Notes: generated by a model from the letters alone, not told the origin. Positions 3,005 through 62,829 are shown, counted from the first letter of the stretch. The stretch: 64,000 nucleotides of DNA from a virus (IMGVR_UViG_3300030117_003378:1-64000), one strand, 5' to 3'. Made by a program: numbers and translations.

Positions 3005-3238
3005 TTGTTGAGGTTGGAAGATATGGGTAAGGTGCGTAGTGCTGCTTCACACCGAGAGATGCTACACGAAGCAATCCGTCTGCTCAAAGAGTGGGAGGTA
3101 TGGATGCAGCACCCTGACTGTAAACATGACAAAAAGGCATTTGCGGAGGCCGTTCGTAACTACAATGCTCTACGCGGCGTGGTCAAGTGTCTCAAGTGGT
3201 CTTTGCGTTTTCCCAACGTCGATGAACCATTGTGGTGA
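3005..3238 (+). CDS. unrecognised 77-residue helical protein
   Basis: The short, mostly helical product contains HDKKAFAEAVRNYNALRG. Start choice is uncertain: TTG codons at 3005/3008 lie nine bases after AGGGGG, while an ATG at 3023 has GAGGTTGGAAG before it. It ends four bases before the XPF-like nuclease gene, so it may be its partner. No family is recognised. Confidence 0.6.
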   Translation: MLRLEDMGKVRSAASHREMLHEAIRLLKEWEVWMQHPDCKHDKKAFAEAVRNYNALRGVVKCLKWSLRFPNVDEPLW

Positions 3239-3242
3239 TTGG

Positions 3243-3962
3243 ATGCTATACATTGACGACAGAGAGAACGACAAAGTGAAGCATAAGATATTGATGCGTC
3301 TTGGTGATAGCAAGCACGACCCAAAGGGACAGGCGCAAGTCAAGCGCCTAAAGTCGGCAGACTACATCATGGGTCAGTGGGGTATCGAGGCCAAAGAAAT
3401 CAACGACCTGTACCGTAGCATCCTAGGTATCGGGAGGACACGCACAATCGCAGGTCAGTTGGCGGACCTCAACGCATCCTTCGACGTACCGATGCTAGTA
3501 GTTTATGGTACAGAACTCAAGCCGTGGATTGCGGGTAGAAAGGGCAGACCGACGGCAAGAGAAATCGCGATAGAACGTAGTAGAATGGAAAAGACCATAT
3601 CGTCATTCAAGGCTTCATTCTTCCACCGCTACCCCAACATCAGATTCATGCAGGTCAAGAGCATGGATGAGTTTGTAGAGTGGATTGCTCTCAACCATTT
3701 GCAGATGGCTGTGGCTGGCAAAACCAAGGCTATACCACCCCAAATCAAGAGTGCCCCTAAAACGCTCTCCGATGCCCGTGAGGGCGCGCTTTTTTCCATT
3801 AGTGGTATCACCCAAGAAGTCGCACAAAGGCTCTTAGAACGCTTCGGAGGGCTCGTAGAGGTCATCTCCGCAAGTCGCAAGGAACTTATGCAAGTCGAGG
3901 GCATCGGAAAGGCCAAAGCGGACAAGATTCTGTCACTCAAAGAGCCTTACGAGTTGTCGTGA
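3243..3962 (+). CDS. XPF/Hef-type (ERCC4) structure-specific nuclease
   Basis: The 239-residue protein has DDRE at residues 5-8, and GIEAKEINDLYRSI takes the place of the ERCC4 motif (normally ERK..D...S); the canonical R of ERK is replaced by A. A helix-hairpin-helix pair forms the last 60 residues (LFSISGITQEVAQRLLERFGG, then VEGIGKAKADKIL), as in archaeal Hef/XPF and Mus81. It is expected to cut branched DNA in replication restart or recombination. Its 3' end overlaps the convergent late operon by 16 bases. Confidence 0.82.
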   Translation: MLYIDDRENDKVKHKILMRLGDSKHDPKGQAQVKRLKSADYIMGQWGIEAKEINDLYRSILGIGRTRTIAGQLADLNASFDVPMLVVYGTELKPWIAGRKGRPTAREIAIERSRMEKTISSFKASFFHRYPNIRFMQVKSMDEFVEWIALNHLQMAVAGKTKAIPPQIKSAPKTLSDAREGALFSISGITQEVAQRLLERFGGLVEVISASRKELMQVEGIGKAKADKILSLKEPYELS

Positions 3963-35332: not shown

Positions 35333-35639
35333 CAGGAAACAGTTGCCGTGCGGCGATATAACCAAAAACTGTTTTCATTGTCTTGGTGGTGAGATAAAAT
35401 ACTGTGTGTTTATACCGTTAGAGTTTGGTTGCTTTCTCTATCCGACAAATACAGCAACAAATACACACAAGGCGCTATCCGTAGTCTGAGTAGTTAACAG
35501 ATTGCGAACAACGTAAGAGAGAGGTTGTGGGGTGACTCCCCTCTCCGCCTATCCGTAAATCAGCCGTAGCCGGTCACAAGCCCGGTTTAGAAATGATGAG
35601 TGCGGAAACCCGACCGAAGAGGGATAAGGAGTGAGAAAA
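35333..35639 (+). other. non-coding stretch with a TATA box and a hairpin
   Basis: There is no convincing gene. TTTATA at 35409-35414 could start a transcript with a leader of about 200 bases for the gene at 35640. A GAGAGG...CCTCTC hairpin lies near 35519-35548. No tRNA-like fold was found on either strand. Confidence 0.4.
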
Positions 35640-36212
35640 ATGAATGGAACAGAAGCAGTCGTTCTGCTTTTCTTCATGGGCGTATTTGCCGTAACGGCAA
35701 AAATCGCACACGGAGTTAAGAAGGGCGATATTGTGATGGTGAAGCCAACGCTTTCCGCAATCGCGGAAGGTCTTGGTCTAAAGGTGGAAACGGAATATGA
35801 TGCGCCATATTGGTTGCAGATTGTCCACGCGCATGGGTTTGAAAAAGCCTTACGCGGCGTGGTCAATACGCTGAAACATGGTGGTCAACTTGTTGCAGAA
35901 GTAAACGTGTTTGCTTTGTACAACAAGGGAGTTCGTGAGATGAACGCAATACCGTGGAGAATTGGAAAAGAGTTGGCAAAACTCAACACGCAATTTGAGT
36001 GTGGTTGTACCGAAAAACTAGATGATGGTGTTGCGTCATGCACCGAGATATTGGAGATGGCAATTAAGTCGTTGGTTGAAGAACATTATCGGCACAATGC
36101 TTTAGCGCGGTTAAACAAATTCTATCTTGACCGCCTCGCTTCGGATGCTGAAATCGAAGCGGACAATGCCTCTCGATGGGGAACGCACATACCCGTTAAA
36201 GGTATGGATTGA
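35640..36212 (+). CDS. membrane-anchored protein of unknown function
   Basis: The 190-residue product has an N-terminal signal anchor (AVVLLFFMGVFAVTAKIAHG), then a mixed alpha/beta domain with one C-G-C pair. AAGGAGTGAG precedes the ATG; an in-frame GTG at 35631 is too close to it. It shares its block with the amidoligase protein, which is also membrane-bound. Confidence 0.7.
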   Translation: MNGTEAVVLLFFMGVFAVTAKIAHGVKKGDIVMVKPTLSAIAEGLGLKVETEYDAPYWLQIVHAHGFEKALRGVVNTLKHGGQLVAEVNVFALYNKGVREMNAIPWRIGKELAKLNTQFECGCTEKLDDGVASCTEILEMAIKSLVEEHYRHNALARLNKFYLDRLASDAEIEADNASRWGTHIPVKGMD

Positions 36213-36799: not shown

Positions 36800-36834
36800 T
36801 ACTCGGATGGCGCAAAATAACGGAGGTGACATTT

Positions 36835-39800
36835 ATGACAAACAACATGAATGTAACTAACGGTCTACGGGTCGTCTTCGTTGTCATGGCACTTGCTTTC
36901 GTTGGCCTCGCGGCTAGCGGAGCAGTTGTCACAGACAGCGCAGACACCCACGGGGTTGTAACAAACCCCACACACATGGGAGTCGGTGGAAACACTGACC
37001 ACATGGAGGTGCTTGAGTTGCACCATCGTCCGCGAAACAGCGCCCAACGTCGTCGTTGGCGTCTTGCCAAAACATCATGGCAACGTCGACGCGCTCGTTG
37101 GCTCTCGCTGAATAGCCTTCAGGCTTTGCGAGACGCATGGGACAAACTTGCCCCAAGAACACAGTTTAGAATTAAGCACGGCTTCGCCAAAGCAAAATTC
37201 GTGGGTGTTATTGGGCTGATGGCTATGATGACTTACTACGTCATCGGACTGCCATTGGCCTTCCTTGTGGGCAAAACCAACCGACGGTGGTACAAGCCCG
37301 GTGTCTATGTGGCGGCGGATTACCTCGTTGCAAAACTCAAATCCGATAAAGAGGATAGAGAACTTGTAGCGCAGGAAAAACGTCAACTGCATCGGGACAT
37401 GGATGAGGTTCAGGACGAGTTGAACATTGCGACTGAAGAACACGAAAAAGCGGTTGACCATCACCGTGAACTAGAATTGTTGCATAAGGACGACCCTGTA
37501 CTGTTTGGTGAGGACGAACTGAAGCAAGCAATTGCTGATGTAGAAGACACCAAGGAATGGGTCAACGAAGCCACTGAGTCATTGCAGTCTGTTCTCGACA
37601 GAGTGGAACAATTCTACTCTGTCAAGATTGATATGCGGCTTGGTAAGTACGGTGAGAATGTAGCCGAGAAATACGGCAGTAGGTTCGCTGAAGTTGACAC
37701 AAGTCTGTTGGAACTTAACCCTGACAACTGGACAGTTGCACCTGAGCATGAAGCAAAGGTTCTGAACATTAGCGACGAACCTAAAGATGGCTTGCGACAA
37801 ATGATGCGAACCAATCTACGGGAAGTGTCAAAGGAGTTTGGTGTGCAAACACCTGTGTTCCGCAACGGTCCGCGTTCGTACACCATCAAGGGCGACGGTT
37901 CAGTGCATGACTATGTCAGAGACGCTGACAGGTCAACCGATACGGTAGCACCCGATACCCGTGCCTATGGCTTTGAGACAAATTTCCCTGTCTCAAACCT
38001 AACTGCGATGATGCGTCACTTGGACATCTACTACACGGCGCAACAACGGTTCCATTGGCCCGGACACTCAAAGCCCGGACAACCGTCAATGATTGTTGAT
38101 GTAGAGTGTGGTTGGCACCTCCACATATCGGTTGCCGCTGGACTTGAGGGCGCGAAGGACAACATCAAAAGAATTCGCAAACTTGGTACTGGCAACGCAA
38201 CACACGATGTGTGGGTTGACTGGCAAGCCGCATTTACCATTAACTATCATGGTAACATTGAGCAGTTCAATGGGATGATGGGCAGAAGCCGCGACCACAA
38301 CAACAGTAACAACACTGGCTATGCGAAGCCTCAGTTTAGTCGTATCAACCATTTGCGTAAGGCAAAGGCACTGTACGAACTTGCGAAGCCTCGCGTGACA
38401 GAAACGGCGCAGGAAGCAAAAGACCGCTTCACTTCGCTCGCTGTTGAGTGGCGAAAGTTTGACGGACCCCATGCGGTTGGACACGAAACACTGGAACAAC
38501 TGGAAAAGTGGGACGGCGTGTCTGCCGTTCCTACGCGAGTTGCTAACCGGTTGCTTAAGAATGCTCGTAAGAAGTATCACGAAGCATTTTGGGCTATGGT
38601 CGACGAAGGTCGTAGCGACTACTGGATGGTTAACTTCGGTGGTTATACGGAACACGGCACAGTAGAGGTCAGACACATGGGCGGATTGAACAACTGGTTC
38701 ACTTCCTGCCTATGGATGATTACCATACAAAAGTTGATGATTGATTCAATGGATGGCAAAGAGTTCTTCATTGCATCACAACACAACAATGGTAGCCAAA
38801 AGGACCCACGCCGCGATGCGTCACAGGCACACGCCTTTGCACAATGGTTGTGTAACGGCTACGAGTGGCCGAAGCCGGTACAGGTTTTCTTGGATGTCTA
38901 CGGCATCACGGAATTCGCAAGTCTGAATGCGGACGCTGTCAACAAGAGTCACCTTGAAGGACAAAGTGTCTTTGTCGAGTCAATCTTGGCATTCAAGGAA
39001 TTTGACGATTGGCAACCATCTGCTGATTTCGTGGACATGAGCGACAAGCGATTAGCCAAGTGGCGACAAAAGTCGTATGCCATGATGGGTGAGACATACA
39101 TCGAACCCGGCAGTACCAACCCGTACAACGCAAGTCTGTTCGGTGTCGGCCTAATCGGTGCTATTGTCGCAGGTACGTCACCAGTGCTAATTGCGCTCGC
39201 GTGCGTAGCGTGTGGCATCGGCGGTTGGATTAACATGAACGTCGATGACGATGGCAAGCCGACAAAGCCAAGTCGTGGTGAGTGGAAGGGGATTCTCAGA
39301 ATCCTCGCCGAACTGTCCTCGCGTGGCTCAGAAGCCTGTGGTGTTGCTTACAGCAGAGGTGACGGTAAGGTACACGGTGCATGGGAAGTAGAACCCGAGT
39401 CCAAGAAGAAGGACAAGTGGGGCTACTACTCATCAGGTATCAACGTACCCAAGATGGTCGGCAGTCTGATTATGAAGAAGATTGCCAAGGGCCTCGGTCG
39501 AATGGGCTTCCGCATGAAGTGGGTTATGACGCACACCCGTCATAGCACAGGCGGTGCTAACAACCGACGCAATGCACATCCAATCAAGGTTGGACCGAAC
39601 GATAACCAAAATGCCGGTATAGTGCTAACGCACAACGGCATGATTTCGTTCAACGCAGAGCGCAAGGTCGAGGACACGCTACCCGAAGAATACTTCGTAT
39701 CGCGTAGCAAGGACATTCGTGGTCTTGAGTTAGATACACGTTGCATCGTGTACTGCTTGGACTACTATGGTTCGACCAACGACGGCATCGACAAGATGGC

Positions 39801-40533
39801 GGCACTGTGTGACTTCGACGGTAGAGCGTCCATGCGTCTCGTATGGGTCGACAAGTCAGAATCGCGTGACGGGTTCCCCGAGCGCGTTCACTTGTGGGCT
39901 AACTGCGACGACCTATGGGTTGCACAGACAGTCAAGGGTAACTGGGTGTATGCTTCAACGCAAAACATCTTGAAGCGTACCTTCGGTAACGTGCTTATAG
40001 ACAGCACTATCCGACACCTAAACCTTGACGCGCACTATGTCATTGATTGGCAACATGGCCTAATCAACCTTGGCAAGTGTGGCAACAAGCACATCGTAGA
40101 GCCTGTCAAGCGTGACTCAAACGCATGGAAGACTGGTCGTAGCACAACTAACAAGCCCGCGACTGTCAACTTAGATGCTTTGGTGTCACCCAAGACAGTA
40201 CCGCCTGTCAAGAACATCATGGATGACGGCTTCTACGAATGCCGCAACTGTGAAAACGGACACTGGTTGACGTTTGACAACAACTGGAATATGTGCCAAA
40301 TCTGCGGTCGTTCAGCAGACGATGTGGTTGACTCTTGCAGTAGCCCATCGTGTGAGACTGACACATTGTGGGACACCTTGCCCGAAGAGGTCAAGACAAC
40401 TGTTCCACCTGTTGGTAGTCCTGACTTGAAGGGATTTGTCGACGAGGTAAATGCCAAGGCAAAGGTTGACGCTAACCTGCGACCGGTCAAGGGCGCACTC
40501 ATGGCGCACGACGAAGACACGCGACAGGCCTGA
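36835..40533 (+). CDS. membrane polyprotein: amidoligase + class II glutamine amidotransferase + zinc ribbon
   Basis: 1232 residues. In order: signal/membrane helix (residues 10-32); second membrane segment (about 121-145, VGVIGLMAMMTYYVIGLPLAFLVG); long coiled coil (about 170-270); amidoligase domain (about 360-640) with YGFETNF, VECGWHLHISV (family CG-x-H-x-H), RSRDHNNSNNTGYA and GTVEVRHMGGLNNW; hydrophobic segment (about 767-792); then a class II GATase starting at Cys793 in ACGIGG, with SRGSEACGVAY, THTRHSTGG and LTHNGMISF as the RG, R-H and N-G motifs; a C-terminal zinc ribbon (CRNC...CQIC). Amidoligases of the ATP-grasp/GS-like type form amide bonds using ATP, and the GATase would supply ammonia from glutamine. 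Class II GATases need Cys at the N-terminus, so cleavage after Ala792 is predicted. GGAGGTGAC gives the start. Confidence 0.8.
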   Translation: MTNNMNVTNGLRVVFVVMALAFVGLAASGAVVTDSADTHGVVTNPTHMGVGGNTDHMEVLELHHRPRNSAQRRRWRLAKTSWQRRRARWLSLNSLQALRDAWDKLAPRTQFRIKHGFAKAKFVGVIGLMAMMTYYVIGLPLAFLVGKTNRRWYKPGVYVAADYLVAKLKSDKEDRELVAQEKRQLHRDMDEVQDELNIATEEHEKAVDHHRELELLHKDDPVLFGEDELKQAIADVEDTKEWVNEATESLQSVLDRVEQFYSVKIDMRLGKYGENVAEKYGSRFAEVDTSLLELNPDNWTVAPEHEAKVLNISDEPKDGLRQMMRTNLREVSKEFGVQTPVFRNGPRSYTIKGDGSVHDYVRDADRSTDTVAPDTRAYGFETNFPVSNLTAMMRHLDIYYTAQQRFHWPGHSKPGQPSMIVDVECGWHLHISVAAGLEGAKDNIKRIRKLGTGNATHDVWVDWQAAFTINYHGNIEQFNGMMGRSRDHNNSNNTGYAKPQFSRINHLRKAKALYELAKPRVTETAQEAKDRFTSLAVEWRKFDGPHAVGHETLEQLEKWDGVSAVPTRVANRLLKNARKKYHEAFWAMVDEGRSDYWMVNFGGYTEHGTVEVRHMGGLNNWFTSCLWMITIQKLMIDSMDGKEFFIASQHNNGSQKDPRRDASQAHAFAQWLCNGYEWPKPVQVFLDVYGITEFASLNADAVNKSHLEGQSVFVESILAFKEFDDWQPSADFVDMSDKRLAKWRQKSYAMMGETYIEPGSTNPYNASLFGVGLIGAIVAGTSPVLIALACVACGIGGWINMNVDDDGKPTKPSRGEWKGILRILAELSSRGSEACGVAYSRGDGKVHGAWEVEPESKKKDKWGYYSSGINVPKMVGSLIMKKIAKGLGRMGFRMKWVMTHTRHSTGGANNRRNAHPIKVGPNDNQNAGIVLTHNGMISFNAERKVEDTLPEEYFVSRSKDIRGLELDTRCIVYCLDYYGSTNDGIDKMAALCDFDGRASMRLVWVDKSESRDGFPERVHLWANCDDLWVAQTVKGNWVYASTQNILKRTFGNVLIDSTIRHLNLDAHYVIDWQHGLINLGKCGNKHIVEPVKRDSNAWKTGRSTTNKPATVNLDALVSPKTVPPVKNIMDDGFYECRNCENGHWLTFDNNWNMCQICGRSADDVVDSCSSPSCETDTLWDTLPEEVKTTVPPVGSPDLKGFVDEVNAKAKVDANLRPVKGALMAHDEDTRQA

Positions 40534-40549
40534 GCCTGACCCAACGATT

Positions 40550-40575
40550 GAGGGGGGGCAGTAATGCCCCCTCTC
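40550..40575 (+). promoter_or_regulatory. GC hairpin between amidoligase and GNAT genes
   Basis: GAGGGGGGGCA-gtaa-TGCCCCCTCTC forms a stem of about 11 bp with a four-base loop, ending 10 bases before the ribosome site GGGAGGTGA of the next gene. It could insulate the two messages or mark a processing site. Confidence 0.5.
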
Positions 40576-40597
40576 TCTCTAAGGGAGGTGAAATAAT

Positions 40598-41092
40598 ATG
40601 GAGAAAACAATCAAGAAGATTGAAGCCCATTTGGCTCTTTGGATTGAGATGGTTGCGGTATTGTGGATTGATGGCAATGCCCACTATCTACTTTTCAATG
40701 AATACCAAATATCCATGTTCCGAAGTGGACGAACACTACACTTTGGTTTGGTCGTAAACGGTGAAACGGTTGCCAAGTCTCAAATGTCATGGATGCCCGG
40801 TTGTTCAGCAATTTGGTTTGCACATGGCCTTTGGGTACATGAAGACTACCGGTCAAAGGGGAAGCACTCAGGTTGCGGTGCATTATACATTATTCGCCAA
40901 TGGCAGAGAAGACTCTTGTTGGATATGGAAGCGAGCCGTGTTTACATCACGGTGCCAGCAGATAATCCAGCAGGGTTGAGAGCGGCTGAAAAGGCGGGTT
41001 ATGTAAGAATGCCCGACCCACACGATGTGGTTAGCGAGCGACACGGATTCGGACGAGCAATCATGTTCGTTTGGGACCCAATCGGCGCTTGA
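40598..41092 (+). CDS. GNAT-family N-acetyltransferase
   Basis: The 164-residue product shows motif A as HGLWVHEDYRSKGKHSGCGAL (acetyl-CoA loop R-S-K-G-K-H-S-G) and motif B as VPADNPAGLRAAEKAGYVRM. It has a perfect GGGAGGTGA start. Amidoligase, GATase II and GNAT genes are known to cluster in predicted peptide- or metabolite-modification systems (Iyer and Aravind's amidoligase survey), so a joint pathway with the upstream protein is likely. Confidence 0.82.
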   Translation: MEKTIKKIEAHLALWIEMVAVLWIDGNAHYLLFNEYQISMFRSGRTLHFGLVVNGETVAKSQMSWMPGCSAIWFAHGLWVHEDYRSKGKHSGCGALYIIRQWQRRLLLDMEASRVYITVPADNPAGLRAAEKAGYVRMPDPHDVVSERHGFGRAIMFVWDPIGA

Positions 41093-41118
41093 ATACGTCG
41101 CAAGATAACACACCGGTT

Positions 41119-41255
41119 GGTCAAGGGGGCTTAGGTTCCCTTGGCTGACTTAGACACAGAGTCGGTTCCGGGGTTGACCCCGCCGACTCATCTTTCACAC
41201 ACCACCTTCGGGTGAGGGTGCAAACGCACAGTAAAAAAGCCCGCTTACAGGCGGG
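41119..41255 (+). terminator. cluster of hairpins ending the amidoligase block
   Basis: Four stems in a row: GTCAAGGG/CCCTTGGCtGAC (41120-41150); GAGTCGG...GGGGttgaCCCC...CCGACTC (41159-41189); CACC-TTCG-GGTG (41202-41213); CCCGC-ttacag-GCGGG (41240-41255, preceded by six A). There is no T-run after the last stem on this strand. It probably protects or terminates the upstream message. Confidence 0.5.
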
Positions 41256-41340
41256 AGTAAATCACGACCACTGGTCGGTTAACGCATGAGCATTAGCCTT
41301 GGGTGCATTGACCCCCCAAAAACGCGGTATAAAATCGTGC

Positions 41341-41419
41341 TAAAATCTAACAAAAAGAAATGTTCAAAAAAGATACAAATAAAATAACAAATAAAATGTA
41401 ACAAATCACAAATCAAAAT
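41341..41419 (-). terminator. AT-rich stretch with ACAAAT repeats, T-rich on the minus strand
   Basis: ACAAAT occurs at 41375, 41387, 41401 and 41408 and again inside the gene end at 41422. On the minus strand this is a T-rich tract just after the stop at 41420, as expected for an archaeal terminator. A DNA-unwinding role is an alternative. Confidence 0.45.
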
Positions 41420-41749
41420 TCACAAATCAGACTCCGCGACGATTCCTACCAAATCCAAAATGTCATCCTCCTCAAATCCAACCTCGCCCGAAAAACGAAC
41501 GAGTTGAGCGGTGAATCGACGCTTGCCATCGACGCGGCCACGGGCGGTGTCCACGAAGGCATCGAATGATGAACGGTCAGTCGCTACGCGCAGGTCACGC
41601 ATGACGCGAAGGCCGACGGGCTTCAAGTCCCGATTGAGTAGTATGGCGCGTACTCGGTCGTCGCCGATGGTCTGAAGTCCACCACGATGTGCGCGCGCGT
41701 GCGCGATGAGGCGGGGCATCTCGGTCAGGTCTGCGGGTATGTCGTCCAT
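41420..41749 (-). CDS. isolated leftward gene, possible regulator
   Basis: 109 residues, Arg/Asp rich (RVRAILLNRDLKPVGLRVMRDLRVATD), higher GC than its neighbours. AGGGTGG lies before the ATG, and a promoter-like GGTTCATAAGGTTAC ends 17 bases upstream. It is the only leftward gene right of 33.3 kb and is divergent from the early promoters, the position of a typical viral repressor. No helix-turn-helix is obvious, so this role is inference. Confidence 0.6.
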   Translation of the reverse strand: MDDIPADLTEMPRLIAHARAHRGGLQTIGDDRVRAILLNRDLKPVGLRVMRDLRVATDRSSFDAFVDTARGRVDGKRRFTAQLVRFSGEVGFEEDDILDLVGIVAESDL

Positions 41750-41765
41750 GAACCACCCTAGCGAC

Positions 41766-41780
41766 GTAACCTTATGAACC
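41766..41780 (-). promoter_or_regulatory. promoter of the isolated leftward gene
   Basis: Leftward GGTTCATAAGGTTAC resembles the virus-wide GTTTATAGGGTAAC motif. It lies 17 bases from the rightward TATA box at 41798, so the two are back to back. Confidence 0.45.
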
Positions 41781-41797
41781 TATCGCTTGGCACAAGG

Positions 41798-41803
41798 TTT
41801 ATA
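41798..41803 (+). promoter_or_regulatory. TATA box, first of a tandem pair
   Basis: CAAGGTTTATAGGCT; TTTATA begins exactly 25 bases before ATGGG at 41823. The same context and spacing recur at 41850/41875. Confidence 0.55.
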
Positions 41804-41822
41804 GGCTCCCCGCCCTTTGAAC

Positions 41823-41873
41823 ATGGGTGCGGCGTGGGTATTCGCAAGGTTTATAGGCTTCTACCCCGTGTGA
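41823..41873 (+). CDS. possible 16-residue leader peptide
   Basis: MGAAWVFARFIGFYPV, start 25 bases after a TATA box and stop one base before the next ATG. Its codons also contain the second promoter. Support is positional only. Confidence 0.25.
   Translation: MGAAWVFARFIGFYPV
41850..41855 (+). promoter_or_regulatory. TATA box, second of a tandem pair
   Basis: CAAGGTTTATAGGCT again, with TTTATA 25 bases before ATGGG at 41875; a leaderless start is expected. Confidence 0.55.
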
Positions 41874-41874
41874 C

Positions 41875-42033
41875 ATGGGCTTGGGGCCTAGTTTACTTTC
41901 TACACCTAGTGTATTTGTTAAATCTGACCCGTTCATTGATAATCCAGCCCCTCCTTTGACTGAACAGGCTCGCAGTCATGCGTTTTGGGGATTTTTTTGG
42001 CATTTTCGCTCCGAATCTAGCCTATTTGGCTGA
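41875..42033 (+). CDS. possible 52-residue leaderless protein
   Basis: The frame (MGLGPSLLSTPSVF...) begins 25 bases after the second tandem TATA box. The C-terminal part is aromatic (HAFWGFFWHFRSESSLFG). No family; low-complexity neighbours make it uncertain. Confidence 0.35.
   Translation: MGLGPSLLSTPSVFVKSDPFIDNPAPPLTEQARSHAFWGFFWHFRSESSLFG
41892..41906 (+). repeat. 15-base direct repeat, copy 1
   Basis: TTTACTTTCTACACC; the second copy is at 42189-42203, 297 bases away in the same control region. Confidence 0.6.
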
Positions 42034-42056
42034 TATTCGTTTATATTCCCCAATTC

Positions 42057-42287
42057 GTGGTACTGCGAGGCCGAAAATTGAGGAGGGTGTATGATGAGGT
42101 AGGGTTTCATACCACTTTTCCACCCGCACTAAGTGTAATTTGTACACCACCCCTTCAAGTAACACCACCTGTCCCCGAACACACTTACTTTACTTTCTAC
42201 ACCGCTCCTACGCGTAAGTACGTTCGCGTGTACGCGTATAGCATGACGAATCGTATGAATCTCATACTGTTAAATATCAGGTCCTAA
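42057..42287 (+). CDS. doubtful open frame in the control region
   Basis: 76 codons from GTG, following TTTATA at about 42039. The product is Pro/Tyr/Thr rich with no family. The same DNA holds direct repeats and TACGCGTA palindromes, so a non-coding control role may be the real content. Confidence 0.2.
   Translation: MVLRGRKLRRVYDEVGFHTTFPPALSVICTPPLQVTPPVPEHTYFTFYTAPTRKYVRVYAYSMTNRMNLILLNIRS
42189..42203 (+). repeat. 15-base direct repeat, copy 2
   Basis: TTTACTTTCTACACC, identical to 41892-41906. Confidence 0.6.
42209..42238 (+). repeat. two TACGCGTA palindromes
   Basis: TACGCGTA at 42209-42216 and 42231-42238, 22 bases apart (two helix turns), with GTACG/CGTGTAC between. Paired palindromes on one face of the helix suit a dimeric regulator or initiator. 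Confidence 0.5.
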
Positions 42288-42304
42288 TTCTAACAATGCC
42301 AAGG

Positions 42305-42310
42305 TTTATA
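42305..42310 (+). promoter_or_regulatory. TATA box of the small-gene region
   Basis: CCAAGGTTTATAGGCAT, 58 bases before the gene at 42368; the same upstream context (CAAGGTTTATAGGC) as the tandem pair at 41798/41850. Confidence 0.55.
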
Positions 42311-42333
42311 GGCATCCATCGGTAGCATCAATT

Positions 42334-42357
42334 TGTGGGAGGGGCCGACCCCCCACA
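42334..42357 (+). promoter_or_regulatory. leader hairpin
   Basis: TGTGGG-a-GGG/CCC-CCCACA with a short loop lies at the expected 5' end of the mRNA, directly before the ribosome site GGATGAT. It could control access to the start at 42368. Confidence 0.5.
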
Positions 42358-42367
42358 GGATGATAAC

Positions 42368-42649
42368 ATGGAACCCAAGCCAGCAACCCGAATTGCAGGT
42401 CGCCACAAGCAAGCCTTGTTGGCCGCAATCTCGGAAATGAAGCCTGAACTGCACTACACGGCAGGAGATATGACATACCACGCGGCGAAGCACAGTAAGA
42501 CTTCCGCCCGATACCTGAAGCCAAAGAATGCGTCCCGTATTCTATGTGCGCTTCAGCGAGAAGGTGCGCCGATTCAAATGCACCCACGCGGCGTCGAAGA
42601 TGAGAATGGGAAGGTCACGACCCAACGCACATTTACGGTGATAGCATGA
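42368..42649 (+). CDS. winged-helix-like small protein
   Basis: 93 residues with a helical core (KQALLAAISEMKPELHYTAGDMTYHAAKHSKTSARYLKPKNASRILCALQREGAPIQ) and a beta end, like several other short putative winged-helix proteins in this virus. GGATGAT-AAC-ATG start. Possible early regulator. Confidence 0.65.
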   Translation: MEPKPATRIAGRHKQALLAAISEMKPELHYTAGDMTYHAAKHSKTSARYLKPKNASRILCALQREGAPIQMHPRGVEDENGKVTTQRTFTVIA

Positions 42650-45023: not shown

Positions 45024-45986
45024 ATGGCAAAGACAGGAAGAGCAGAAGCCGCGCTGAAGCGCGACCAAATGAGAAACATGGTGGTTGAAACCATCATCAA
45101 GCAAATGGAGAGTGGAAGCACCGATTGGTTGCGACCGTGGACAAAGTCGGGTGGTTCAGAATTGCCCGTCAGCAACGTCGGTCGCTCATACCGAGGCATC
45201 AATGTATGGTGGCTTTGGGCCAACGCATCTCAAAACGGATGGGGCAACGAATGGGGGACTTTCGCTTCATGGAAGAAGGCCGGAGAAGCACACGCTAACT
45301 CAATCGGAAGTGACGAGTATTTCGGTGTTCAGAAGGGCATGAAGTCTACACCGGTTTTCTTCTACAAGATGCTCAAGATTAAGGACAAGGACAACGAAGA
45401 CGAGGAGAAGATGATTCCCCTGCTCAAGTGGTTCTATGTGTTCAACCGAGCGCAGACCAACCTGCCGGACAAGGTATATGTTGATGACGAAACTCACGAA
45501 GTCAGCGAGGAGGCCGCAGAATTGGAGGCGTTGGCACTGTACGACAAGCACAATGTGGATTTGCGGTACGGTGGAGGTCGAGCATTCTATCGGGTGTCGA
45601 CAGACCACATTCAAATGCCGAATCGAGAGCATTTCCGTGACTCGACAGGGTTCACGGCAACACTACTACACGAATTGACTCATTGGACAGGTCACCCGTC
45701 ACGACTCAATCGGAAGTTGGAAAACTCATTCGGAGGCAACGAGTACGCCTTTGAGGAATTGATTGCAGAGATGGGTGCGGCAATGGTTTGCGCCGAGGTC
45801 GGCGTGGACAATGACCACCTGATGATTGACAACCACGCGGCATACGTCACATCGTGGCTCAAGGGACTCAAGACGGACGGTGGCGCACAAGCCCTATGGC
45901 GAGCCGCCGCCCATGCACAGAAGGCCGCAGATTGGATTCTCGGCACAGGCTACGACGGAAAGGAGGACGAGAAGAATGAATCATAA
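45024..45986 (+). CDS. ArdC-like antirestriction protein
   Basis: 320 residues: N-terminal ArdC ssDNA-binding domain (DWLRPW near 32, then GRSYRGINVWWLW, WGTFASWKKAG, VFFYKM) and C-terminal zinc metallopeptidase-like domain with HELTHWTGHPSRL (HExxH near residue 218) and a downstream FEELIAEMGAAMVCAE glutamate. ArdC of plasmid pSa protects incoming ssDNA from restriction; many phages carry homologues. It heads its own operon with the recurrent promoter. Confidence 0.88.
   Translation: MAKTGRAEAALKRDQMRNMVVETIIKQMESGSTDWLRPWTKSGGSELPVSNVGRSYRGINVWWLWANASQNGWGNEWGTFASWKKAGEAHANSIGSDEYFGVQKGMKSTPVFFYKMLKIKDKDNEDEEKMIPLLKWFYVFNRAQTNLPDKVYVDDETHEVSEEAAELEALALYDKHNVDLRYGGGRAFYRVSTDHIQMPNREHFRDSTGFTATLLHELTHWTGHPSRLNRKLENSFGGNEYAFEELIAEMGAAMVCAEVGVDNDHLMIDNHAAYVTSWLKGLKTDGGAQALWRAAAHAQKAADWILGTGYDGKEDEKNES

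Positions 45987-61017: not shown

Positions 61018-62829
<1,812 letters not shown>

Follow-up and report, generated by a model that had tools for sequence, protein, structure and literature searches.

Amidation genes of phages of the phiEco32/LUZ24 type form a cassette encoding an amidoligase (PF12224), a COOH-NH2 ligase (PF14395), a class II glutamine amidotransferase (GATase), an ATP-grasp protein and a gamma-glutamyl cyclotransferase. The amidoligase gene is followed by the GATase gene in the same direction, as in gp84–gp83 of phiEco32 and in ORF23/25 of UFV-P2 (PMC3890496), and many GATases of this type end in zinc-ribbon-like CxxC pairs. Amidoligase–GATase pairs are common in tailed phages, yet no demonstrated target was found in the literature. 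Modification of the cell wall against superinfection is usually suggested for such pairs (PMC10580990, PMC11318856), and a cell-wall target was likewise suggested for the amidation genes of phiEco32 (PMC10580990; PMC11318856). In crAss-like phages, namely, Cellulophaga phage phi14:2 (gp51) and the contigs L034, L040 and L051, a membrane helix directly precedes an internal Cys of the GATase. The leader comprises about 27–37 residues and the separate amidoligase gene lies after the GATase gene, adjoining it in phi14:2, L040 and L051.

The window analysed here is a stretch of 64,000 nucleotides, part of a virus record of 73,801 bases. It shares with the phiEco32/LUZ24 cassette the order amidoligase–GATase in one direction and the terminal CxxC pairs, and with the crAss-like phages the helix before the internal Cys. 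It differs from both in that the two enzymes, encoded by separate genes in those phages, are represented by one chain with hydrophobic helices. The COOH-NH2 ligase (PF14395), present in 8 of 12 records, was not found in the window's virus record or in its relative L001, both of which are possibly fragments; genes of the ATP-grasp protein and the cyclotransferase were not seen among the larger ORFs of the window's virus that were scanned. Judged by sequence comparison, the fusion of amidoligase and GATase in one chain looks new, whereas separate adjacent genes are known from other viruses.

Organization of the locus and the virus

The following features were annotated; residue numbers count from the ATG at 36835, and numbering from the alternative GTG start is higher by three.

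36822–36829, + strand: Shine–Dalgarno sequence GGAGGTGA, 5 nt upstream of the ATG at 36835; L001 is identical here
36835–40533, + strand: fused amidoligase–GATase ORF, uninterrupted, 1232 aa, ATG start
36871–36927, + strand: hydrophobic helix 1 (residues 13–31), from hydropathy; kept in L001
37207–37263, + strand: hydrophobic helix 2 (residues 125–143), from hydropathy; absent from L001
37333–37611, + strand: charged, helical stretch that is probably a coiled coil (residues 167–259), recognized by eye only
37960–38751, + strand: amidoligase-like domain (about residues 376–639), with GFETN, C425-G-W-H-L-H, YWMVNF and GTVEVRHMGG
39151–39207, + strand: hydrophobic segment (residues 773–791) directly before Cys793, from hydropathy; kept in L001
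39211–40005, + strand: class II GATase domain, Cys793 first; C, RG, THTRHSTGG, NAHP, HNG and D all aligned
40240–40305, + strand: C-terminal zinc ribbon CRNC-x14-CQIC (CxxC-x14-CxxC); kept in L001
40598–41092, + strand: GNAT-like acetyltransferase with its own perfect Shine–Dalgarno sequence GGAGGTGA at 40584; absent from L001

Mechanical ORF calling gave an open frame of 1235 codons from a GTG (36826–40533, + strand). This GTG was rejected as the start, since it sits inside the Shine–Dalgarno sequence. The start is most likely the ATG at 36835, which gives 1232 residues, because GGAGGTGA lies 5 bases upstream and the stretch is identical in L001. From the N-terminus, the chain contains a hydrophobic helix, a coiled-coil-like stretch, the amidoligase-like domain, a hydrophobic segment, the class II GATase beginning at Cys793 and the zinc ribbon. 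A single chain of this length and domain order had been described in the initial annotation and was confirmed as a continuous ORF, the coiled coil being assigned by eye. Judged by their hydropathy, the hydrophobic helices may cross the membrane.

Among isolates, tailed viruses of haloarchaea give good matches to DNA polymerase B and the RFC-like clamp loader. For the terminase (TerL), matches to haloarchaeal tailed viruses are less clear, and Bacteroides phages score higher. A gene for an ERCC4-type nuclease is also present. The nearest matches of the GroEL-like chaperonin are bacterial and phage GroEL, which makes the host assignment less certain. The best matches of PolB, RFC and, less clearly, TerL agree with the earlier assignment to an archaeal virus, and the genome probably belongs to a tailed virus of marine archaea; Poseidoniales would be a plausible host (magrovirus-like), as suggested by gene content.

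Amidotransferase and amidoligase-like domains

The complete catalytic set of class II GATases (nucleophile Cys, RG, HxR, NAHP, HNG and late Asp) was found in the alignment with nine phage GATases, and none of 200,000 shuffled versions of the protein contains the ordered motif (Cys, TRH[AS]T, NAHP, HNG, D). Catalytic Cys1, Arg, His, Asn-Gly and Asp are common to this domain and to GlmS, PurF and GltS. A profile built from the GATase alignment finds the structures of GlmS and PurF (best GlmS E = 7.5e-18). The domain matches PHROG 4736 (E = 7.5e-7) and Pfam GATase_6 (PF13522; E = 1.4e-4), the latter with 22.3 bits, below the cut-off of 27, which is a detection threshold and not a biological feature. 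The NCBIfam GlmS profiles match the GATase part only, residues 866–949 in GTG numbering, and GlmS proper was rejected because of this coverage and the absence of the isomerase domain. In contrast to GlmS and PurF, the protein contains neither the sugar isomerase nor the phosphoribosyltransferase domain, and its GATase sits behind an amidoligase. The AlphaFold model of this part, made from a two-row alignment, is of very low confidence (mean pLDDT 28.8). The identity of the domain as a class II GATase is firm, as established by the motifs and profiles. C-terminal CxxC pairs similar to the zinc ribbon were found in many phage GATases.

The middle domain is very probably an amidoligase, as suggested by its motifs and a profile match that is weak but exceeds the nulls. 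The motifs CGWHLH and GTVEVR follow in the expected order; the first motif, GFETN, with Asn in place of the second acidic residue of GxExE, is partly kept. With a profile of 41 phage amidoligases, hhalign gave a score of 34.0 (E = 3.6e-4), the nulls reaching no more than 23.9 with 100 shuffles and 24.9 with about 167 non-amidoligase ORFs, a set from which five amidoligases, overlooked before as duplicates, were taken out. With an iterative HMM of phage amidoligases, the window and L001 proteins ranked first against the ORFs of the window and 200 shuffles, at E of about 0.0004–0.08 varying with the iteration; the first version of 13 sequences did not single them out. The AlphaFold model from a two-row alignment is again of very low confidence (mean pLDDT 35.9). 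It is improbable that this domain is unrelated to amidoligases and carries two similar motifs by chance. Such a reading is favoured by the absence of a Pfam Amidoligase_2 (PF12224) match to the fused protein at E ≤ 1, by weak hhalign scores with small profiles of 6–7 amidoligases and by the absence of tblastn matches of the domain in 50,697 phage records. However, no shuffle of the protein among 200,000 contains the motif pair CGxHxH...[GH][TS]xExR, the profile score is higher than all nulls, and the domain adjoins the GATase, where an Amidoligase_2 gene is located in most relatives.

The GNAT-like gene matches Pfam Acetyltransf weakly (17.4 bits, below the cut-off of 20.7; E = 0.0055), and the motifs RSKGxxxG and NPAGLRAAEKAGY are visible by eye. 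In four phage cassettes, none of the small genes tested is a GNAT by Pfam. The initial annotation had proposed a functional trio of amidoligase, GATase and GNAT in an archaeal virus: the presence in one viral chain of a class II GATase, its catalytic Cys internal, together with an amidoligase-type domain is supported, as is the archaeal virus, while the third member is represented by a weak match, is absent from L001 and has no counterpart by Pfam among those small genes.

Conservation and origin of the fusion

Among 2.9 million viral contigs, scanned with DNA patterns as well as with the complete protein and its two domains, a sole close relative was found, contig IMGVR_UViG_3300030090_003649 (L001). 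It encodes a protein of 1181 residues with the same fused order and 87% identity overall. Outside the known relatives, the patterns CGWHLHI and ACGIGGW gave only chance matches in the viral contig scans, and no relative of the fused protein was found among 84,980 cellular genomes scanned. The second membrane helix (residues 125–143) is absent from L001, as is a stretch of 577 bp of the window containing the GNAT gene. L001 and distant phages share all catalytic residues of the GATase, Cys793 included. Assembly error or a frameshift artefact was ruled out, since the same open frame spans the junction in both contigs.

Comparison of the window with L001 by the Nei–Gojobori method gave dN/dS values of 0.25 in the amidoligase-like region, 0.27 in the GATase and 0.14 in the short hydrophobic segment that precedes Cys793, the latter from few changes; the coiled-coil stretch is weakly conserved (0.64). 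Purifying selection acts on both enzyme domains and on the junction in the two viruses.

A scan with the GATase alignment yielded 39 viral loci. Amidoligase_2 was matched in 33 of the 37 records searched, which include the window's virus and L001, neither of them matching, and three named phages (35 records other than the two with the fusion); as a control, 1 of 14 genomes matched, below the cut-off. Both ORFs were placed in 31 viral loci. In about 20 of these, for example, L035, L037, L041, L044, L047, L054, L062, L064 and L065, the amidoligase ORF is located directly upstream on the same strand, ending at most about 150 bases before the start of the GATase ORF or overlapping it; it lies downstream of the GATase in L036, L039, L040, L051 and L057. 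Of 54 GATase ORFs from the collected DNA, the only fused ones are those of L001 and the window, both of which occur more than once in the set. As the amidoligase gene elsewhere often directly precedes the GATase gene in the same order, the fusion is best read as a joined operon pair.

Expected processing at Cys793 and possible function

In class II GATases the catalytic Cys must be N-terminal, and the residues preceding it are removed autocatalytically (PMC9140057); cleavage between Ala792 and Cys793 is expected on this analogy. In nearly all of the 39 loci the Cys is the second residue, right after Met or after an Ile codon serving as the start, so that the demand for an N-terminal Cys made in the initial annotation fits the family. 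Departures from this are confined to the two fused proteins and to four crAss-like contigs (L032, which is phi14:2, L034, L040 and L051); in the latter, a leader of 27–37 residues with a membrane helix precedes the Cys. A guess drawn from phi14:2, that many phage GATases possess a membrane leader, proved wrong, most of them starting at Met-Cys. The prosegments described for class II GATases are short, in contrast to the 792 residues here.

Fusion of neighbouring amidoligase and GATase genes into a glutamine-dependent amide-forming enzyme is the reading we consider fairly likely. The GATase half would use Cys793 to release ammonia from glutamine; the amidoligase half would activate a carboxylate with ATP, to which the ammonia, or an amine, would be coupled by an amide bond. 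The GATase would probably be switched on by the cut between Ala792 and Cys793, made most likely by the chain itself, as in other Ntn-hydrolases, with the halves remaining associated; the hydrophobic helices, if inserted, would hold the enzyme at the membrane. If segment 773–791 spans the membrane, the amidoligase and the GATase would lie on opposite sides in both variants, in conflict with simple ammonia transfer. Such separation of the two enzymes is the main difficulty of the mechanism. Points against an amide-forming fusion enzyme are the lack of a Pfam Amidoligase_2 match, the Asn in GxExE, the possible membrane separation of the active sites and the long prosegment.

In a more specific version, tentative and rather doubtful, one gene of an archaeal virus encodes both enzymes as a membrane-bound amidating polyprotein that cleaves itself; release at Cys793 would activate the GATase, and the target would be an archaeal or viral protein, because the host is expected to lack the peptidoglycan usually assumed as the target of phages. 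With an archaeal host, the peptidoglycan form of the cell-wall target suggested for phiEco32 would be unlikely. The release of a soluble GATase half from a membrane amidoligase and a part in superinfection exclusion, both put forward in the initial annotation, are conjectural.

Other readings concern the way in which Cys793 becomes, or does not become, N-terminal. Internal initiation at Met750/Met751, by which a separate GATase with a short hydrophobic leader would be made and the fusion would be partly nominal, is unlikely. An in-frame ATGATG at 39082, about 125 bases upstream of the Cys793 codon, and the membrane leaders of the four crAss-like contigs speak for it, but this ATGATG has no Shine–Dalgarno sequence, in contrast to the perfect GGAGGTGA of the fused gene and the GNAT gene, and removal of the leader would be required all the same. 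We also hold it unlikely that the chain stays uncut, the GATase half being a binding or structural domain rather than a glutaminase and the amidoligase using free ammonia or an amine. No processing signal could be demonstrated, and a nucleophile this far inside the chain is unprecedented among the relatives examined; the catalytic residues, including Cys793, retained in both viruses and in distant phages, as well as the dN/dS of the GATase, argue against a loss of activity. Cleavage by a host signal peptidase at the hydrophobic segment, with one half acting outside the cell, is highly improbable: the segment resembles a signal sequence with small residues before the cysteines (ALA-C, VA-C), and the number of spans between the two domains is odd in both variants, but the ATP and glutamine for amidoligation are cytoplasmic, and the AxA suits Cys790 better than the catalytic Cys793.

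For the preferred reading, an amide-forming enzyme that arose by gene fusion, the single chain suggests that amidoligase and GATase act together. The fused version, a single gene that provides the two enzymes in stoichiometric amounts, lends itself to expression and assays. An archaeal host lacking peptidoglycan would widen the list of possible amidation targets. That a hydrophobic helix stands before the catalytic Cys both here and in crAss-like phages suggests that such systems may involve anchoring of the glutaminase or its timed release.

N-termini of GATase II in phage contigs

In seven viral contigs with GATase II loci (L028, L030, L031, L033 [phiEco32 type], L042, L056 and L058), an Ile codon precedes the GATase Cys, and a stop codon lies shortly upstream without an intervening Met; translation of these GATases therefore seems to begin at the Ile codon. 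The annotation of phiEco32 gp83, a separate GATase II gene, places its start at an Ile codon. In four crAss-like contigs, namely, L032 (Cellulophaga phage phi14:2), L034, L040 and L051, a short membrane-helix leader abuts the catalytic Cys, where a start codon is absent; processing would also be required for these GATases.

GATases and magrovirus ‘GlmS’

‘GlmS’ was reported as a metabolic gene of magroviruses (PMC10160649). For GATases similar to that of the window, matches to GlmS profiles are confined to the GATase part, so some magrovirus ‘GlmS’ genes may, judging by these profiles, be GATases of amidation cassettes.

The fused gene and other genes of the window

Compared with L001, a viral contig carrying the same fusion, the fused gene differs by ~8% overall, in contrast to positions 36841-36948 in its N-terminal part, where ~100 consecutive bases, including synonymous sites, are unchanged. 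The gene at 35631-36212 has an N-terminal hydrophobic segment; in its place, L001 carries a different one (3020-3475), likewise beginning with a hydrophobic segment. The region 41101-42649 shares 95.5% identity with L001 and includes an ORF kept there, for which a Pfam search matched no family:

41420-41749, minus strand, conserved ORF of 109 codons

Other genes were also annotated:

45024-45986, ArdC-like anti-restriction protein (ArdcN and MPTase-PolyVal, E=7e-43), with a conserved counterpart in L001
51855-52370, pyrimidine dimer DNA glycosylase, by a Pfam match at E=4.6e-6
61240-62829, GroEL-type chaperonin, ~40% identity to bacterial and phage GroEL

This chaperonin of bacterial/phage likeness coexists with archaeal-looking replication genes in the same virus.
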